Below are positions 4,414-20,449 of a stretch of 64,000 bases of DNA, in pieces. The notes under the pieces were generated by a model. That model was not told where the DNA came from and did not search any database. It was given only the letters and a program-made list of their open reading frames with translations. Position numbers and translations under genes: made by a program. The stretch is from Flavobacteriales bacterium (GTDB lineage: Bacteria; Bacteroidota; Bacteroidia; Flavobacteriales; Schleiferiaceae): NCBI GenBank assembly GCA_017795025.1, contig CP051243.1, forward strand, positions 2,938,897 through 3,002,896. The letters run 5' to 3'. Positions within the stretch are counted from its first letter, which is position 1; every line of letters starts with the position of its first letter.

Positions 4414-5421
4414 ATGGAGGCTACCGAAAAACTAAACGCACGCGACTTTAGCAGCGATCAAGAGGTAAAGTGGTGCCCAGGATGTGGAGATTATAGCATC
4501 TTAAAACAAATGCAATCTGTTTTACCCGAAATGGGGATACCGCGGGAGAATATTGTTTTCATTTCTGGTATTGGCTGTAGTTCCCGTTTCCCGTATTACA
4601 TGAATACTTATGGGATGCACAGTATTCACGGACGCGCTCCGGCTGTGGCCACGGGCCTTAAGCTTAGTAATCCCGACTTAAGCGTTTGGGTAATTACCGG
4701 AGATGGTGATGGAATGAGTATTGGCGGGAATCATTTAATTCACGTGCTACGACGTAATGTAGACCTTAATATTCTGCTCTTTAACAATCAAATTTACGGA
4801 CTCACCAAGGGACAGTATTCCCCCACATCTGAGGTGGGTAAAAAAACCAAAAGCTCCCCAATAGGTAGTTTGGATCATCCTTTTAATCCTGCAGCTCTGG
4901 CCTTGGGCTCCGATGCTACTTTTGTGGCCCGCAGTATCGACCGTGACCCCAAGCATATGCGTAGCATTTTAGCGGCGGCCGAAGCACATAAGGGCAGCAG
5001 TTTTGTTGAGGTGTATCAAAATTGTAATGTCTTTAATGATGGCACCTTCCTAAACTTCACCGATAAAAAGCTAAAGGATGCCTATATCCTCCACCTAGAA
5101 GAAGGGCAGCCTTTAATTTATGATGAAGGGAAAAAGGGAATTCGCTTAAATGGCTTAAAGCCCGAAATTGTTAATCTCGAAGATGGTGCCTCGGCAAATG
5201 ACCTTTGGATTCACGATTCTAAGGACCCCACCAAGGCCTATATTTTAAGCCGCTTTTTTGATGCTAACTTCCCCCGTCCTTTTGGTATTTTATACCAAGA
5301 AGATCGCCCTTGTTACGAAGATGGGGTGGTAGATCAAATTGAACGTGCCCAGGCGGTGCAAGGGGAGGGGGATTTGGATGCCTTACTCGAAGGAAGCCGC
5401 AGTTGGGAAGTAGAAGCCTAG
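4414..5421 (+). CDS. korB: 2-oxoacid:ferredoxin oxidoreductase beta subunit
   Basis: This is the thiamine-diphosphate-binding beta subunit, partner of the preceding korA. WCPGCGDYSILK near residue 20 and GIGCSSRF near residue 53 supply conserved cysteines. The diphosphate/Mg motif is GDGDGMSIGGNH, followed by LLFNNQIYGLTKGQYSPT. At 335 residues it is the normal length. The last 4 bases overlap the 3' end of the convergent histidine kinase gene, and no separate terminator is visible. This closes the mrp-nfu-korA-korB operon. Confidence 0.92.
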   Translation: MEATEKLNARDFSSDQEVKWCPGCGDYSILKQMQSVLPEMGIPRENIVFISGIGCSSRFPYYMNTYGMHSIHGRAPAVATGLKLSNPDLSVWVITGDGDGMSIGGNHLIHVLRRNVDLNILLFNNQIYGLTKGQYSPTSEVGKKTKSSPIGSLDHPFNPAALALGSDATFVARSIDRDPKHMRSILAAAEAHKGSSFVEVYQNCNVFNDGTFLNFTDKKLKDAYILHLEEGQPLIYDEGKKGIRLNGLKPEIVNLEDGASANDLWIHDSKDPTKAYILSRFFDANFPRPFGILYQEDRPCYEDGVVDQIERAQAVQGEGDLDALLEGSRSWEVEA

Positions 5422-6776
5422 GTTTCGCAAAAGCAAAGTTTAAATAAGGTGCCTTCGCCCTTTACACTTTGCACTTTAAGGTCCCCTTGATGAGACTTCA
5501 TGATATTTTTACTCAAGCTTAAGCCTATGCCCGTTCCACTTTTACGCGTGCTAAAGAAGGGAACAAAAATTTGAGAGAGTAAATCGGGGTCAATGCCTTC
5601 ACCATTATCACGCACGTAAAGGGTTAAACCCTCCTCTCGTAGTTCGGCACTGAGCTCAATAAAGGCATTTTCAACACCTTCCAGGGCCGGAAAAGCATTC
5701 TTAATCAGATTGATGAGTACCTGCTCAATCATCTTTTTATCTGCCTTTAGGGCGAGGCGGTTTTGCAATAGGCGATAGCTAAGCTGCACCTGATGCGATT
5801 CGGCCTCCTTTTTCATCAGCTGTACCACTTCATCGAATAGCTCCTGAACGGGAATCACGGATTTTTCGGGGGCTGGCAGTTGACTCAATTTCCGGTATTC
5901 TTCTACAAAGCTGAGCATGCCCTTACTGCGTCGGATAATGGTACGGAGCGCTTCGTGCATGTCGGTTAAATCCTCCACACTTAGCTCTTCAGGTTTCTTG
6001 GTTTTGCCCTCTTGCTGAATCATCCCTTGCAAGGTTTCACTTAAGCTCACCACAGGCGTCACCGAATTCATAACCTCATGAGCTAGAATACGAATCAGAC
6101 GATGCCAAGCCTCCATTTCTTTTTCCTCTAAAGCGTGGCGCATGGTGCCTATGCTAATTAAATGGTAGTTCATGCCCGCCAGTTGCAAGTGCTGCAAATC
6201 GAGGTAGTATTCTTCTGCCCCCGAGCTGCTTTCTCGGGTCCATAACTTGCGGCCGGTAAAGTCAAAGTCGCCAATTACTTTAGCTAAATCCGGCAAGCGT
6301 TCCTCCAGGCGCTTCCAATGTTGAAAGCCTGGAATGTCGAGCAGTTCCTGGCATTTTTCGTTGGTGAGCAAAATCTTTCCTTCTTCATCTACCAAAAGAA
6401 TTCCCAAGCTTAAATTTTGCAGGATTAAGGATAAAATTTGATCGCGATGATCACCTTTAACCTTCGACTCGTGAATAATACTCAGCATGCGATTAAACTC
6501 CTGCTCTAATTCGGCGAAGGCCTTTCCAGATCGCGCCAAATCAAAGCGGGTGCTGAGGTCTCCGTAGCGAACCGCTTCTAAAAACTTTCGGGTTTCAACC
6601 AGCAGCTTCCGCTGATAATACCACCACTCTAATACTTGTCCTATAATGATGAGGACCAGAACGATTTTAATGAAAATGAGGTTGTAGGCATAGGAGGTAT
6701 AGAATAAAAGCCCCATGCTAAACAGGAGGAAAATGAGCCTCAGGCTGCTTTGTATAGAATAAGACCTAAAGTTCAT
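5418..6776 (-). CDS. NtrY-like sensor histidine kinase
   Basis: A membrane-bound kinase that should phosphorylate the response regulator encoded just upstream. Two adjacent membrane segments lie at about residues 13-48, with almost no periplasmic loop. A HAMP-like linker and a PAS-like region (about 110-215) follow. The H-box AHEVMNSVTPV puts the phosphorylated His near residue 233. N and G boxes (LINLIKNAF, DNGEGI, GTGIGLSLS) follow. I chose the ATG at 6776 because it overlaps the regulator's 3' end by only 11 bases; a longer reading from 6848 would bury 24 extra residues in that gene. With almost no outer sensor domain, the signal is probably in the membrane or cytoplasm. Confidence 0.88.
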   Translation of the reverse strand: MNFRSYSIQSSLRLIFLLFSMGLLFYTSYAYNLIFIKIVLVLIIIGQVLEWWYYQRKLLVETRKFLEAVRYGDLSTRFDLARSGKAFAELEQEFNRMLSIIHESKVKGDHRDQILSLILQNLSLGILLVDEEGKILLTNEKCQELLDIPGFQHWKRLEERLPDLAKVIGDFDFTGRKLWTRESSSGAEEYYLDLQHLQLAGMNYHLISIGTMRHALEEKEMEAWHRLIRILAHEVMNSVTPVVSLSETLQGMIQQEGKTKKPEELSVEDLTDMHEALRTIIRRSKGMLSFVEEYRKLSQLPAPEKSVIPVQELFDEVVQLMKKEAESHQVQLSYRLLQNRLALKADKKMIEQVLINLIKNAFPALEGVENAFIELSAELREEGLTLYVRDNGEGIDPDLLSQIFVPFFSTRKSGTGIGLSLSKNIMKSHQGDLKVQSVKGEGTLFKLCFCET

Positions 6777-8127
6777 ACTTTTCCATTCTTCGGTATAAGG
6801 CGGCACGGGTGAGTCCAAGGTCCTTAGCGGCTTTCGAAATATTGCCACGGTGTTTATCCAAGGCTTGTAGCACTAAGTGACGCTCCATTTCTTCTAAATT
6901 TAAACCAGCGGGCTTGGCCGCCTGGCCGCCCCGTAATTGTAAATCTTCTGCTTGGACCTCTTTACCAGTGCTTAAAATTACCGCTCTTTCCATGCTATGC
7001 TCTAACTCCCGCACATTTCCGGGCCAGTGGTATTCGCAAAGCGCATCAATGGCGGCTAGGCTTAAGTGCAAACTTTCTTTCTGATATTTTTTACAAAATC
7101 GCTCAAAGAATTTCCGCGCTAATAGTGGAATATCTTCCTGCCGATCCCGTAAGGGAGGAACCACTACCTCCACAGTGTTAATGCGGTACAAGAGGTCTTG
7201 ACGAAAGCGCTTTTCTTCCACCCAGTCGTGCAAAGGGCTATTGGTTGCACAAATAAGGCGCACATTAACCTTACGACTTTGATTTTCGCCAACCCTTCTA
7301 ATTTCTTGGGATTGCAAGGCATGCAAAAGTTTGGATTGCAGACTGAGGTCTAAATTCCCGATTTCATCTAAGAAGAGGCTGCCCTCATCAGCCGATTCAA
7401 AACGACCGGGCTTGTCTTCTGAAGCATCCGTAAAGGATCCCTTCTTATGTCCGAAAAGCTCGCTTTCAAACAAGCTAGGGGCAATAGCGCCAAGGTCTAC
7501 CGTAACGAAGGGTTCCGTTTTTCGCATGCTCATCCGATGGATGCTTAAAGCTAAGGCACTTTTACCCGTTCCATTTTCGCCCAGCAAGAGAATATTGGCG
7601 TCGGTTTCAGCCACCTTTCGCAAGGTTTCCAAAACGCTCTGCATGCTTGGGGAACGACTAATTAAGTCCTCCTCTTTTAAGGCCGCTTGATCTTCCCACT
7701 GCTTATTGGTGTTTTGCAAGCGCGCTACCTTTTGCTTTTCCCGCGCAAGCTTGAGGGCATTGTTTATAGTAGCCAGCAATTTTTCGTTGGTCCAGGGCTT
7801 CAGCACAAAATCAAAGGCCCCTTCTTTAATCGCTTTTACGGCCAATTCCACTTCTCCGTAGGCGGTCATTAATACGACCTGCGTACCCGGACTTAATTCC
7901 CGAATATGTTTAAGCCAGTAAATTCCCTCGGCCCCATCATTGCGCCCCTTGCGAAAGTTCATGTCTAAAAGAACCAAGTCAATGGCTTGCCGACTAAGGA
8001 TTTGGTTGAGGTCGGAAGGGTCTTCGGTGGTCTCTACTTTTTGAAAGTGTTGCTTAAGCAGAATTCGAGCGCTGGTAAGCACGTCAGGGTCATCATCAAC
8101 AATGAGTATGTGGTAAGGCTTTTTCAC
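6766..8127 (-). CDS. NtrC-family sigma-54-dependent response regulator
   Basis: A 453-residue activator with a receiver domain (acidic DDD at 11-13, phospho-Asp near 55 in LLDMNF), a sigma-54 AAA+ domain (Walker A GENGTGKSALA, then SLFLDEIGNL) and a C-terminal Fis-type helix-turn-helix (NISKAAKDLGLTRAALYRR). The loop that contacts sigma-54 reads GSFTDA instead of GAFTGA. From memory, GAFTDA-like variants are common in Bacteroidota, so it should still be active. It is divergent from an ABC transporter operon, and two palindromes plus a sigma-54 promoter lie in the gap, so that operon is its probable target. The palindromes begin 21 bases from its own start, which suggests autoregulation. Confidence 0.93.
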   Translation of the reverse strand: MKKPYHILIVDDDPDVLTSARILLKQHFQKVETTEDPSDLNQILSRQAIDLVLLDMNFRKGRNDGAEGIYWLKHIRELSPGTQVVLMTAYGEVELAVKAIKEGAFDFVLKPWTNEKLLATINNALKLAREKQKVARLQNTNKQWEDQAALKEEDLISRSPSMQSVLETLRKVAETDANILLLGENGTGKSALALSIHRMSMRKTEPFVTVDLGAIAPSLFESELFGHKKGSFTDASEDKPGRFESADEGSLFLDEIGNLDLSLQSKLLHALQSQEIRRVGENQSRKVNVRLICATNSPLHDWVEEKRFRQDLLYRINTVEVVVPPLRDRQEDIPLLARKFFERFCKKYQKESLHLSLAAIDALCEYHWPGNVRELEHSMERAVILSTGKEVQAEDLQLRGGQAAKPAGLNLEEMERHLVLQALDKHRGNISKAAKDLGLTRAALYRRMEKYEL

Positions 8128-8147
8128 ATATCGAAGGTAAGGGTCTC

Positions 8148-8185
8148 TGTTCGAAAACGAACAAACAACTGTTCGGAAATGAACA
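8148..8185. promoter_or_regulatory. Twin palindromic enhancer sites for the NtrC-type regulator
   Basis: Two 16-bp palindromes lie in tandem: TGTTCGAAAACGAACA at 8148-8163 (perfect) and TGTTCGGAAATGAACA at 8170-8185 (one mismatched pair). Their centres are 22 bp apart, about two helical turns, which suits cooperative binding of dimers on one DNA face. They lie about 80-117 bp before the transcription start predicted from the sigma-54 promoter at 8238. That is the normal range for enhancer-binding proteins. Binding by the adjacent regulator is inferred. Confidence 0.8.
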
Positions 8186-8237
8186 GCATTTTAAATGGGA
8201 TAAAACATAAACACCTGTAAAAAAGGCACTTAGGTTT

Positions 8238-8254
8238 TTGGCACAGCCTTCGCC
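8238..8254 (+). promoter_or_regulatory. Sigma-54 (-24/-12) promoter
   Basis: TTGGCACAGCCTTCGCC matches the sigma-54 consensus TTGGCACGnnnnTTGCT. The invariant GG (8240-8241) and GC (8252-8253) have the required spacing. It predicts a start near 8265 directed at the ABC transporter genes. It sits downstream of two palindromes and beside a sigma-54 activator gene, which makes chance unlikely. Confidence 0.8.
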
Positions 8255-8289
8255 TTATAGAAGGATGAAAACTAAAGCGTAAAAATTTT

Positions 8290-8440
8290 AATAAAAACCC
8301 CGGCGCTCACCAAGGCAACGTTCTTTTAAAATTCGTTCGGACTGCAAAATTGAATTTGGTTGTTTAATTAGTTCAAGTAGCAGAATTTAGGGTTAAATCG
8401 GTTATCCTCTGCAGTCCCACGAACCTCCGGGGTTTTTATT
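8290..8440 (+). ncRNA. Long structured RNA element (leader or small RNA), unidentified
   Basis: A perfect 14-bp pairing closes the element: 8290-8303 with 8427-8440 (CCCCGG / CCGGGG core, then a T-run). Inside it, GACTGCA (8340-8346) pairs with TGCAGTC (8410-8416), and GTTCG (8334-8338) pairs with CGAAC (8420-8424) across a small bulge. About 30 unpaired bases lie on the 5' side, and an AT-rich arm forms the tip. No open reading frame explains it. It lies in the predicted 5' leader of the sigma-54 transcript, so it could be a regulatory leader or attenuator. A free small RNA (the rod shape recalls 6S-type RNA) is the alternative. The pairing is clear; the class is not. Confidence 0.5.
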
Positions 8441-8459
8441 TCAATAAGCGTCCTATCCT

Positions 8460-8516
8460 ATGATCATCTTAGCTATTATTCTTTGCATCGGTATTCTTAT
8501 TAGCAAGTTGTTTTAA
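8460..8516 (+). CDS. Possible 18-residue hydrophobic leader peptide
   Basis: An ATG-initiated reading frame encodes MIILAIILCIGILISKLF and stops 32 bases before the ABC ATPase. It has the form of a single membrane helix ending in Lys-Leu-Phe, like KdpF-type micro-proteins. There is no Shine-Dalgarno sequence, but that is normal here. So short a frame could be chance; position and hydrophobicity are its only support. Confidence 0.25.
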   Translation: MIILAIILCIGILISKLF

Positions 8517-8548
8517 GCATTTGCTTTACTTTGTGTGAAAGCCTAGGT

Positions 8549-9238
8549 ATGATCCGTCTTCACAATATTTCCAAGCTCTATCGCAGTCAGGGTATTGAAA
8601 CCCGGGCCCTTAACGATGTCGACCTTCGAGTTCAGGAAGGGGAGTTCCTCAGTATTATGGGTCCTAGTGGTTGCGGAAAAACCACCCTCTTAAATATTAT
8701 TGGTCTTTTAGATACCTATGAAGAAGGTCTCTTTGTGTTTCGGGATCAGGACATCAGTCAGCTCGACGAAAAAACAAAGTTGCAGATCCGGAAGGAGCAG
8801 ATTGGCTTTGTTTTTCAGAACTTCAATTTGATTGACGACCTCACGGTGGCCGAGAATATTGAGCTCCCTTTACATTATCTAAAGGTCCCTCGTTCCGAGC
8901 GTCGCGAACGCGTATTAAAAGTACTTGATGCCATATCCATGGGGCACCGTCGCGAGTTTTTCCCCTATCAACTTTCGGGCGGACAACAACAAAGAGTGGC
9001 GGTGGGTCGTGCCATTGTTAGCGAGCCGAGTTTAATCTTGGCGGATGAGCCTACTGGAAACCTCGATTCGGCTCAAGGAAACGACATTATGGAAATGCTG
9101 GCCCGACTCAATGATCAAGGGACTACCGTTGTTATGGTAACGCATAGCGCGCACGATGCCTCCTATTCGCAGCGTATTGTGCGTTTATTGGACGGGGAGG
9201 TTACTTCAGAGAAAAAAGTCTTGCATGCTCCTTTCTAA
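8549..9238 (+). CDS. MacB/LolD-like ABC transporter ATP-binding protein
   Basis: The ATPase of an FtsX-type ABC transporter. Walker A is [12 protein letters not shown], the signature is [14 protein letters not shown] and Walker B is [13 protein letters not shown]. At 229 residues it is the usual length of LolD/MacB-type ATPases. I chose ATG 8549 ([12 protein letters not shown]), where family members begin, over an in-frame TTG at 8531. The 3' end overlaps the permease gene by 14 bases, so the two are translationally coupled. These transporters drive periplasmic or envelope movements, such as export or lipoprotein release, rather than classic import. The substrate is unknown. Confidence 0.9.
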
Positions 9239-11633
9239 GCTACCTTTTGCTTTTCGGACCCTTTACCGGCACCGACTTTATACCCTCTTAAATTTAGGGG
9301 GATTAGCAATTGGCTTGGCGGTTTCTATTGTGGTAGCCTTGTATCTTCACGGGGAGTTTACCTATGATCAACATTGGACCGACCATGAACGCATTTACCG
9401 TGTTAATTCCGAATTTAATTTAAACGGAACCGAGGAGGTTTATGGTGGCAGTGGCTTTGGAATGGCCCAATTACTTGAAGAACATTATCCTGAGGTGGAG
9501 GCGGCCACCCACCTATTTCATTTAGAGAACAGCATCTTCTTCCGATCCGATAGCTTGAGGCAGTATGAGGAGCAGGTTGCAATTGCAGATGCCCATTTTT
9601 TTGAAGTTTTTAATCAGCAATTTTTACACGGAAACCCAAAGGAGGCGCTTGCAGAACCTAGGAGTATAGTGCTTAGTAAGTCCTTTGCCGAGCGGTACTT
9701 TGGTCGTAGTGATGTCTTAGGTCGAAAAATTAATACCAGTAACTACGAGTATACGGTAAGCGGGATTATCGAGGACTTACCCGAAAATACCCATCACTTT
9801 TTTCAAGCCCTAATTTCTCAAGCTGCTTCCCCAATGGACTCTCATGATTTAGCAGTAAGCCTTTGGCAGGTGAGCCATTACACCTTCTTAAAACTAGAGG
9901 AGGGACACAGCGCTGAAGAAATCGAAGCTGGTTTTTCCAGTTTCTTTGACCGGTATATGTCGGGACTGGCGGATATCGTGCAGGGCACCTACAAGCTGCA
10001 TTTAAGGTCGATTTCGGACCTGCATTTTGGTGAGCCCGTGAATTACGACTTGCCTTCGGGGCGACTGGCTTATGTGTATGGCTTTGCCGGTATCGGACTC
10101 CTTATTTTGGTATTGGCCATCATCAATTATATAAACATGGCTACCGCCCGGAGCCTAAAGCGTATTCGCGAATCTGCCATGCGTAAGGTTTTAGGGGCCA
10201 GTAAGTTTGATATAAGGCTCTTAATTTTAAGCGAGTCGGTGTTGATGTCGCTCATCGCCCTTTTACTAGCCTTTGCGGTGGTGGAGGCCTTAACTGCTAT
10301 TTTACCCTTTAATGAAGCGATTGGCAAACAGCTTAGCTTGAACTTCGAGCGCTTCCCCGAACTCTTACCGCTCTCCCTAAGCCTAGCTCTATTGGTGGGT
10401 TTCATCAGCGGAAGCTATCCGGCCTTAAGTCTGGCCAGGGTGAGTCCCCTAGATGCCTTTACCAATAAAAAGGGAATTCAGCGTAGAAACTCCATGCCCC
10501 GCAAGTTTTTAGTAGGCTTCCAAGTGTGTGTATCGGTAGCGGTCGTAACGACGGCTATCTTTATGTACCGGCAAATGGAGTTTATTAAAAATCGAAACTT
10601 AGGTTTTAACGCTGATCATGTATTGGTGATTAATGTTCAGGACTCCACCAGCATTCATCGAATTCAAGATTTAGCGCAAAACTTTCGTCGCAGCACCATG
10701 ATTCAATCGGTAACGGTTGGCGCCAGTGCTACAGGAAGCGGCACCTTTAGAAGTTTGTTCGAACTGGAAGAGGAAAATGGCTTGGATTTTCGGCGTTTGA
10801 GTAGTGACTTTTTGGGAGTTGGGCCGCGCTATTTAGAAACTATGGAAATACCACTCCTAGCTGGCAGGGGCTTTAGACAAGGTGATTTGGAGGATAGTTT
10901 GCGCCCTAAGGTTATTGTAAATAGAGCATTGGTGCGCGAGATGGCATGGGAACGCCCACTAGGGAAAATGGTGCGCAGTGCTTTTGATGAATCGGGAACC
11001 GCCACTCAGGAAGCCGAGGTAATTGGCGTATGCGATGATTTTAACGCCCAAAGCCTGCATAATAAAATGGCCCCACTCATCTTAACCCTTAATCGGGAAA
11101 CCTTTAGAGTATTGCAAATTAAGGTGGAGCCTGACCAGGTATATGCTGCTTTAGATGATATGGAGCGGCGTTGGACGGCCATGGTTCCCGATGTGCCTTT
11201 TCAATTCTCCTTTTTAAATAAAGATCTGTTGCAGATGTATGAAGAGGAAATGCGGCAATCACGACTTATTTTATACCTCACCATTATTGCCATCTTAATC
11301 TCCTTATTGGGCTTTGTGGGCTTAGCTTCTTTTACCACTGGATTGCGAACCAAAGAGATTGCAATTCGCAATGTACTGGGGGCAAATGGCTGGGATTTGG
11401 TGAATTTGATTTATAAGGAATTGGTCTCCGTAATTCTAAGTGCGGTGCTAATTGCTGCGCCGCTATCGGTGTTTATTACTTGGCAGTGGCTGCAAAATTT
11501 CGCCTACCGCACTTCGGTAGAGCCGATTATCATTTTAATTACCGTAATGCTTACCTTGCTCATCGGTTATGGGATAGTTGCCATTCATTCTTTAACTATT
11601 TCCCGTCGAACATCGGTTCAGAGTTTAGTATAA
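9225..11633 (+). CDS. FtsX-family ABC transporter permease with two FtsX domains
   Basis: An 802-residue inner-membrane permease. An N-terminal helix (LYTLLNLGGLAIGLAVSIVVA) leads into a periplasmic MacB-PCD-like domain, then three helices of the first FtsX domain at about residues 275-415. A second helix (LVGFQVCVSVAVVTTAIFM) leads to another periplasmic domain and a C-terminal FtsX domain with the ALRTKEIAIR-like GLRTKEIAIRNVLGA element. I chose ATG 9225, which overlaps the ATPase gene, rather than 9156 deep inside it. Duplicated-FtsX permeases of about 800 residues are typical of Bacteroidota. Expression is probably sigma-54-dependent from the promoter at 8238. Confidence 0.88.
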   Translation: MLLSKLPFAFRTLYRHRLYTLLNLGGLAIGLAVSIVVALYLHGEFTYDQHWTDHERIYRVNSEFNLNGTEEVYGGSGFGMAQLLEEHYPEVEAATHLFHLENSIFFRSDSLRQYEEQVAIADAHFFEVFNQQFLHGNPKEALAEPRSIVLSKSFAERYFGRSDVLGRKINTSNYEYTVSGIIEDLPENTHHFFQALISQAASPMDSHDLAVSLWQVSHYTFLKLEEGHSAEEIEAGFSSFFDRYMSGLADIVQGTYKLHLRSISDLHFGEPVNYDLPSGRLAYVYGFAGIGLLILVLAIINYINMATARSLKRIRESAMRKVLGASKFDIRLLILSESVLMSLIALLLAFAVVEALTAILPFNEAIGKQLSLNFERFPELLPLSLSLALLVGFISGSYPALSLARVSPLDAFTNKKGIQRRNSMPRKFLVGFQVCVSVAVVTTAIFMYRQMEFIKNRNLGFNADHVLVINVQDSTSIHRIQDLAQNFRRSTMIQSVTVGASATGSGTFRSLFELEEENGLDFRRLSSDFLGVGPRYLETMEIPLLAGRGFRQGDLEDSLRPKVIVNRALVREMAWERPLGKMVRSAFDESGTATQEAEVIGVCDDFNAQSLHNKMAPLILTLNRETFRVLQIKVEPDQVYAALDDMERRWTAMVPDVPFQFSFLNKDLLQMYEEEMRQSRLILYLTIIAILISLLGFVGLASFTTGLRTKEIAIRNVLGANGWDLVNLIYKELVSVILSAVLIAAPLSVFITWQWLQNFAYRTSVEPIIILITVMLTLLIGYGIVAIHSLTISRRTSVQSLV

Positions 11634-20377: not shown

Positions 20378-20449
20378 TGCCCCATCGTCTAATTGGCAGG
20401 ACAGCTGGTTTTGGTCCAGTCAGTCGAGGTTCGAGTCCTCGTGGGGCAA
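20378..20449 (+). tRNA. tRNA-Gln (anticodon TTG)
   Basis: The acceptor stem pairs TGCCCCA (20378-20384) with TGGGGCA (20442-20448). The anticodon loop TTTTGGT gives anticodon TTG, which reads CAA/CAG glutamine codons. The T-arm contains GGTTCGAGTCC. The 3' CCA is not encoded. A perfect hairpin terminator follows. Confidence 0.92.

Follow-up and report, generated by a model that had tools for sequence, protein, structure and literature searches.

The regulatory locus and its gene order

The window analysed here is a stretch of 64,000 nt from a Flavobacteriales bacterium (Schleiferiaceae; GCA_017795025.1, CP051243.1, positions 2,938,897-3,002,896 of the forward strand), and this account is concerned with the gap at 8128-8548 between the gene for a response regulator and that for an ABC ATPase (Table 1). 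According to its Pfam domains the regulator consists of a receiver, a sigma-54 AAA+ domain and a Fis-type helix-turn-helix, in this order, which is the arrangement of an NtrC-type enhancer-binding response regulator. The consensus of the loop by which such proteins contact sigma-54 is GAFTGA; the regulator has GSFTDA, most of its orthologs have GAFTDA, and one or the other of these, with one or two departures from the consensus, is present in all 26 loci listed. The Pfam domains of the neighbouring genes likewise bear out the divergent layout, an NtrC-type activator on one side and a MacB/FtsX operon on the other, that was described in an initial annotation of this DNA. Of 99 genomes in which the regulator was sought, 89 have a match at 1e-60, a count that includes paralogs. 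One paralogous cluster (L068, 4580-11811) precedes the window in the same genome by about 14 to 7 kb and comprises ORFs for a kinase-like protein, an NtrC-type regulator (50% identical), a 335-aa protein which by eye resembles a membrane-fusion protein, an ABC ATPase and a permease.

Table 1. Features at and around the gap, in window coordinates
Feature	Position	Strand	Remarks
Sensor histidine kinase	5418..6848	-	Pfam HATPase_c 9.1e-21; overlaps 3' end of regulator gene
NtrC-type response regulator	6766..8127	-	GTG start at 8127; Pfam PF00072, PF00158, PF25601, PF02954
Palindrome 1, presumed regulator site	8148..8163	.	TGTTCGAAAACGAACA, 12/12 arm bases paired
Palindrome 2, presumed regulator site	8170..8185	.	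TGTTCGGAAATGAACA, 11/12 arm bases paired
-24/-12 sigma-54-type promoter	8239..8253	+	TGGCAC-N5-TCGC; transcript start expected near 8265
Predicted primary transcript	8265..8441	+	about 175 nt, ending in U-tract; from promoter position and terminator-like stem
RNA1, predicted structured RNA	8290..8440	+	150 nt; closing stem AATAAAAACCCCGG/CCGGGGTTTTTATT running into U-tract
RNA1 seed a	8355..8364	+	TTTGGTTGTT, complement of AACAACCAAA in codons 2-5 of SusC-like mRNA
RNA1 nearly invariant core	8370..8399	+	AGTTCAAGTAGCAGAATTTAGGGTTAAATC, alignable by eye with RNA2 seed
RNA1 seed b	8400..8407	+	GGTTATCC, complement of GGATAACC (-22 to -15 relative to SusC-like start)
RNA1 terminator-like stem	8427-8437	+	CCGGGG-TTTTT; between sigma-54 promoter and exporter
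18-codon ORF	8460..8516	+	hydrophobic peptide MIILAIILCIGILISKLF; between RNA1 and ABC operon; 5/7 genomes of genus
Possible -7 element, housekeeping promoter of ABC operon	8526..8533	+	TTACTTTG
MacB/LolD-type ABC ATPase	8549..9238	+	Pfam ABC_tran 1.5e-32
FtsX/MacB permease	9156..11633	+	coordinates of longest ORF, with actual start probably closer to 9230; Pfam MacB_PCD, FtsX

A double palindrome and a sigma-54-type promoter

The centres of the two palindromes are 22 bp, or two helical turns, apart, and the first palindrome begins 21 bases from the GTG start of the regulator gene, both as the initial annotation had it. The 3.44-Mb genome contains TGTTCGN4CGAACA in a single position and the control of this sequence gave 0 matches, so the palindrome is not a matter of chance. 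The promoter that had been placed downstream of the palindromes is present too, with the GG-N10-GC core; sigma-54 promoters have the consensus context TGGCAC-N5-TTGC, from which the TCGC of this one is the single departure. Its distance from the palindromes had been put at about 70 bp; palindrome 2 and TGGCAC are separated by 53 bases, and the count to the C of the -12 element is 67.

Conservation was assessed in 21 orthologous gaps, which were obtained from 22 regulator loci (tblastn identity at least 53%) and do not include L022, where the ATPase gene is out of reach, or the more distant L024-L031. All 21 keep the order of regulator, promoter and ABC ATPase gene, and in all of them the two best palindromes are spaced by 22 bp, with at least 9 of 12 arm bases paired except in G083, where both are weak (8 and 8 of 12). 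In 19 gaps no more than 3% of shuffles reach the score of the promoter match (the two exceptions among the 21 being G022 with 10% and G030 with 8%), and it is in these 19 that a sigma-54 promoter, judged as GG-N10-GC in its context, can be said to be conserved. The match follows the centre of palindrome 2 by 61 nt in 14 gaps, by 60 in two, by 72 and 74 in one each, and by 94 in three. When up to two mismatches are allowed, the palindrome pair occurs once per genome in 17 of 59 genomes, each time adjoining this regulator and including a carrier from another family (G061), and the reversed control has no match in the 59; G021 has the locus, yet its double palindrome exceeds this tolerance. As the pair occurs once per genome and only beside the regulator, the activator seems to be dedicated to this single locus.

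The comparison across genomes thus upholds the central claim of the initial annotation, insofar as sequence conservation can, in that a real sigma-54 switch, made up of regulator, double site and promoter, appears to be conserved in related bacteria. Its interpretation as a switch for the exporter is partly supported, since simple driving of the ABC exporter is made doubtful by a structured RNA (RNA1 hereafter) and a terminator-like stem that intervene and that were absent from the earlier reading.

A conserved predicted RNA between promoter and exporter

The sequence of 8264-8445 has a predicted fold of -45.3 kcal/mol, whereas shuffled sequences average -34.0 (sd 3.8), which gives z -3.0 with 2 of 200 shuffles as good. 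The consensus fold computed for the seven genomes of the genus has 44 pairs, 7 of which show a change of both partners in some sequence, although its covariation term is not favourable (+0.55). When the gap was compared by blastn with 99 genomes, 18 had a match, namely the genome itself, six others of the genus and 11 outside it; 10 of these 11 match in the RNA1 core (about 8353-8409; 38-93 nt, 81-95% identical) and two (G041, G061) at the palindromes. Across genera the core is kept while the inner stem and the flanks vary freely. The core is single-copy in its own genome. Of the 21 gaps, 20 have it placed after the promoter and before the exporter, G083 being without it (alignment A1 omits G043, G033, G021, G014, G030 and G038 from these 20). 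A search for the exact core over 84,980 species, which misses diverged copies and may have left out the nearest relatives, returned 16 loci, all of them at this locus and in one family, with assignments to Schleiferiaceae, Owenweeksia, Cryomorphaceae, Phaeocystidibacter, Flavobacteriia, Flavobacteriales and Bacteroidia/Bacteroidetes. Rfam release 15 has no family for RNA1 at the gathering cut-off, the four matches in 8100-8600 being all far below it, and the only feature of the window to reach the cut-off is a tRNA at 20378-20449. Searches of open-licence PMC articles other than preprints turned up no description of RNA1.

The short ORF behind RNA1 differs between genomes of the genus mainly in the third base of its codons (0,0,5 and 1,0,9, for instance, between the closest pairs), and its 18-aa peptide has no match in Pfam. 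It is followed by a housekeeping-like TNNNTTTG element, which is found 23-24 nt before the start of the ATPase gene in five of seven genomes of the genus, the flavobacterial housekeeping promoter consensus being TAnnTTTG (PMC9723704). With such an element in this place the exporter may be expressed on its own, from its own promoter, and merely be boosted by read-through. The first product of the switch would most likely be RNA1, the exporter being no more than a possible second output.

A predicted target at the start of a SusC-like receptor gene

In the genus of the window RNA1 occurs without the second RNA, RNA2, of the sister genera. Its predicted target in the window's own genome is a gene that starts at G000:C1:2107601 on the minus strand and encodes a receptor with carboxypeptidase-regulatory, plug and barrel domains; the next gene, in the position of a SusD-like gene, encodes a lipoprotein-like protein of 478 aa for which Pfam gives a TPR match only. 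Each of the seven genomes of the genus has at this SusC-like gene a start region that resembles GGATAACC-aataaatt-aaAGCTATGCGAACAACCAAA, and RNA1 contains GGTTATCC, GTAGC and TTTGGTTGTT (TTAGGTTGTT in G003) in the antiparallel order that matches it. The bipartite pattern GGATAACC-N12-40-ACAACCAA has 17 matches in 99 genomes, against 4 for the reversed control, and these are accounted for by the opposite strand of RNA1 itself (8), the receptor start (7, one per genome of the genus) and two other places; the seeds of this pattern were chosen after the leader had been seen, out of three SusC-like groups.

Averaged across the genus, the duplex of RNA1 with the receptor start has -32.5 kcal/mol, compared with -23.7 (sd 2.3) in 39 other ortholog groups, each represented in four or more genomes, none of which is as low, and even the worst genome of the genus has -30.5, compared with -23.5 in the best other group. 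Three complementary 7-mers are conserved at the SusC-like start, against none in the 39 groups, and no shuffled RNA1 core out of 200 is as low in duplex energy; an earlier run with only nine background groups had the same sign (z -4.5). In the window's own genome alone the duplex was unremarkable in one test, where 5 of 56 start regions were as good, and unequalled in a second with a slightly shorter core (0 of 39 starts as good). No compensatory change was found between RNA1 and this target. Trans-acting antisense RNAs are marked by conserved complementarity near the start of a distant mRNA, and this is what is found here, with one single-genome test not significant; judged by its pairing potential, RNA1 looks like an RNA of this type.

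Exact copies of parts of the core were also sought. The sequence TTTAGGGTTAA is found in the window's own genome at four places other than RNA1, none of them at a start, and in 12 genomes at 73 places, of which 11 are RNA1 and the other 62 were inspected. A weak candidate among them is a pair of related adhesin-like genes, one in G019 and one in G033 (46% identity along 555 residues), which have TTTAGGGTTAA between positions -20 and -10 relative to the ATG, and the sequence also precedes the start of single genes in G041, G043, G027 and others. For TTCAAGTAGCAG there are 16 places, 12 of them RNA1 and the remaining four not at a start.

A second, putative antisense RNA in the sister genera

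The gap of the sister genera is mostly longer and contains the sigma-54 promoter, a small protein gene (in 8 of the 16 loci with the exact core), RNA1 and then the seed of RNA2, which follows RNA1 in 12 of the 21 gaps. The cultured relative Phaeocystidibacter luteus LMG 25704 (L060) has RNA1, RNA2, the small protein and also, as G014, the receptor match. Searched for in exact form, the RNA2 seed, TTTGTGTTAAACGT, has 24 matches in 11 of 99 genomes, compared with 7 for the reversed control: ten are RNA2, eight are SusC-like starts, five are further RNA-like loci and one falls within coding sequence of another family and looks fortuitous. In the eight, the match runs antisense over the start of the gene for a SusC-like TonB-dependent receptor with the leader ACGTTTAACACAAAATTTTACCTAC-ATG, subject to small variations, and the perfect complementarity between RNA2 and receptor extends over 17-22 nt within -27 to -4 of the start. 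Such a match is present in eight of the ten genomes with the RNA2 seed, and an exact one is missing in G041 and G027. The base after CGT provides one compensatory change, being G in RNA2 and C in the leader in g9 (two genomes) and T and A, respectively, in g4 and g19 (four genomes); in g14 (G019, G033) this position is mismatched. From its sequence RNA2 looks plainly like an antisense RNA. The receptor of the window's genus is 66-72% identical to the target of RNA2 in G033, G014 and G038.

Two further observations concern the RNA2 seed and its targets. In five genomes a separate RNA-like locus (L093, L086, L095, L088, L089) has the seed followed, by eye, by a G+C-rich inverted repeat and T-run, and possibly encodes a second RNA with the same target as RNA2. 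In one genus, receptor genes of two genomes (L079 and L080) have an identical 25-nt leader, a near-identical signal peptide and clearly different SusC-like bodies, as if the bodies had been swapped behind a constant start.

The RNA1 core can be aligned by eye with the RNA2 seed (GTAGCAGAATTTTAGGGTTAATCGG versus GTAGGTAAATTTTGTGTTAAACGTT), and if RNA1 acted like RNA2, its targets would be expected to have AACCCTAAAATTCTGCTA directly before the ATG. With up to three mismatches this sequence has 48 matches in nine genomes outside the genus, nine of them RNA1, and its reversed control has 56, so the number of matches is not raised. All 39 matches other than RNA1 were inspected, and five of them end at -1 to +2 of the ATG of exported-looking proteins (G019, G022, G024, G035, G009), with signal-peptide-like starts judged by eye; for three of these proteins Pfam gives matches that exceed the curated cut-off, one being a type IX secretion sorting tail. 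Shuffled patterns in 694 kb of DNA fell into the ATG register in 6 of 338 cases, which gives 5 of 39 a P of about 6e-4, and the unshuffled pattern had 12 matches in the same 694 kb with none in register. In the sister genera RNA1 would thus appear to fit the starts of exported proteins. Since its predicted targets differ between genera, the strong conservation of the core is not fully explained.

A small exported-looking protein upstream of the RNAs

The small protein encoded before RNA1 in the sister genera (117-121 aa; L054 2864-3223 and seven similar ORFs) looks exported, is absent from the window's genus and has no match in Pfam for the three members tried. Its structural model has a mean pLDDT of 80.8, with residues 1-28 mostly poor. 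The best Foldseek matches are TonB C-terminal domains, with a best E of 2.1e-3 at a probability of 0.99 and none at or below 0.001. In a second structure comparison all of the 23 best rows (Z 5.7-7.7) are C-terminal domains of TonB, TolA or TonB homologues, and although Z values below 8 are weak by themselves, this group stands clear of the rest, which begins at Z 4.1. The models are therefore suggestive of a protein with a TonB/TolA C-terminal fold that may be produced together with RNAs against TonB-dependent receptors.

A tentative extension, about which we are doubtful, is that the sister-genus operon is a module that shuts down TonB-dependent uptake at two levels, with a free exported protein of the TonB/TolA C-terminal fold (a possible decoy for TonB boxes) and, downstream of it, antisense silencers of SusC-like receptors and of exported proteins, all on one sigma-54 transcript. 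The window's genus would then be without the protein and keep the RNA only, and RNA1 would have been re-aimed at the receptor that elsewhere is silenced by RNA2.

The proposed circuit and its alternatives

With the sites, the promoter match, the structure and conservation of the RNA and its complementarity to start regions directly legible in the DNA, the best reading of the locus, and one that we consider probable, is that a kinase/NtrC/sigma-54 circuit switches on RNA1 as an antisense silencer of a SusC-like receptor. The histidine kinase, which may sense an envelope condition, and the NtrC-type activator, bound at the two palindromes, would switch on the sigma-54 promoter, and the first product would be RNA1, a structured and terminated small RNA of 150 nt with its end near 8440. 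RNA1 would pair with the translation start of the mRNA for a SusC-like TonB-dependent receptor encoded elsewhere and block its translation, whereby an envelope signal would lower receptor synthesis. The downstream exporter would be made by read-through, from its own promoter, or both.

The same RNA could be viewed as a cis-acting leader, an attenuator or riboswitch-like element that governs read-through into the ABC operon, with the receptor match a coincidence. Its place between promoter and exporter in all but one of the gaps, its terminator-like closing stem and the aptamer-like conservation of its core are in keeping with such a role, which we nevertheless hold to be unlikely, as a coding gene precedes RNA1 in eight sister-genus loci, the RNA2 seed comes after it in 12 gaps, and RNA1 and the ATPase gene are separated by anything between 32 and 806 nt in nine gaps of sister genera. 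The plainly antisense look of RNA2, the fit of RNA1 to conserved start regions and the lack of an Rfam family at the cut-off also argue against a leader of this kind. The view of the initial annotation, in which the sigma-54 promoter simply serves the ABC exporter, taken together with a leader of no special function, seems improbable to us: the leader core is what remains alignable outside the genus, the leader folds well, its counterpart RNA2 has a long antisense match, and a separate promoter-like element precedes the ATPase gene in five of seven genomes of the genus, all of which outweighs the conserved order of regulator, promoter and ATPase gene in the 21 gaps. That RNA1 is a small RNA with a protein or other mRNAs as the partner of its core, and that its match to the SusC-like start is not its function, is favoured by the retention of AGTTCAAGTAGCAGAATTTTAGGGTTAA in genera where no match of RNA1 to a SusC gene was seen and other start-site matches occur, but is very improbable given that the SusC-like match is kept by every one of the seven genomes of the genus, ranks first among 40 groups, and belongs to a receptor whose closest relatives in G033, G014 and G038 bear the RNA2 target site.

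If the antisense circuit is true, a dedicated kinase/NtrC/sigma-54 system restrains SusC-like receptors by way of an RNA, in a phylum, the Bacteroidota, where the restraint of the many receptors of this type is only beginning to be understood. The locus offers three predicted elements, an RNA, its mRNA partner and the inducing system, within one small region, and it comes with a natural experiment, in that the closest relative of this receptor appears to be controlled by a second RNA in sister genera.

Comparison with known systems

Small RNAs linked to sigma-54 are familiar from proteobacteria, examples being Qrr, GlmY, CrcZ and NrsZ. What they share with the circuit proposed here is that an enhancer-binding protein and sigma-54 convert a signal into a small RNA; the RNAs and their targets differ. 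In the sigma-E response, an envelope signal leads to MicA and RybB, which silence outer-membrane proteins in an Hfq-dependent manner; the silencing of outer-membrane proteins is the theme in common with RNA1, whereas the sigma factor and the bacteria are others.

A further sigma-54-linked RNA of proteobacteria, derived from the 3' UTR of glutamine synthetase, belongs to another phylum and is a different RNA with different targets (PMC9731577). Closer in taxonomic terms is Flavobacterium psychrophilum, where sigma-54 promoters serve genes for envelope stress and exported proteins and where one of them is assigned to a putative regulatory RNA, Rfp36; this RNA comes from the same class of bacteria, but the part of the paper drawn on here gives no target, no NtrC/ABC locus and no link to SusC for it (PMC9723704).

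Antisense control of SusC homologs is known from DonS of Bacteroides, which shares this theme with RNA1 but is encoded in cis, and pairing in trans at translation starts without a Shine-Dalgarno sequence is known from GibS, also of Bacteroides, which has other targets and another promoter; the terms 'sigma-54' and 'RpoN' are absent from the main text of the paper on both (PMC7366714). The closest known mechanism is that of the FopS RNAs of Bacteroides thetaiotaomicron, which are induced by bile salts, one member coming from a 3' UTR, and which pair near the start codons of SusC-like mRNAs and stop their translation (PMC11697453), just as RNA1 is predicted to pair at the start of a SusC-like receptor mRNA. 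FopS RNAs are about 65-70 nt long, have 14 paralogs, are made from sigma-ABfr housekeeping promoters, are bound by RbpB and occur in Bacteroidaceae (PMC11697453). Unlike them, RNA1 is about 150 nt long, comes from one locus with a sigma-54-type promoter beside a kinase/NtrC pair and is found in another family; being single-copy and preceded by such a promoter, it does not belong to the multicopy, sigma-ABfr-driven FopS RNAs, as judged from the features that the source gives for FopS rather than from seed sequences (PMC11697453). The two halves of the proposed circuit, combined in one dedicated system, did not turn up in searches of open-licence PMC articles other than preprints; each half has its precedent, the one in the sigma-54 envelope genes of F. 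psychrophilum and the other in the repression of SusC by FopS.
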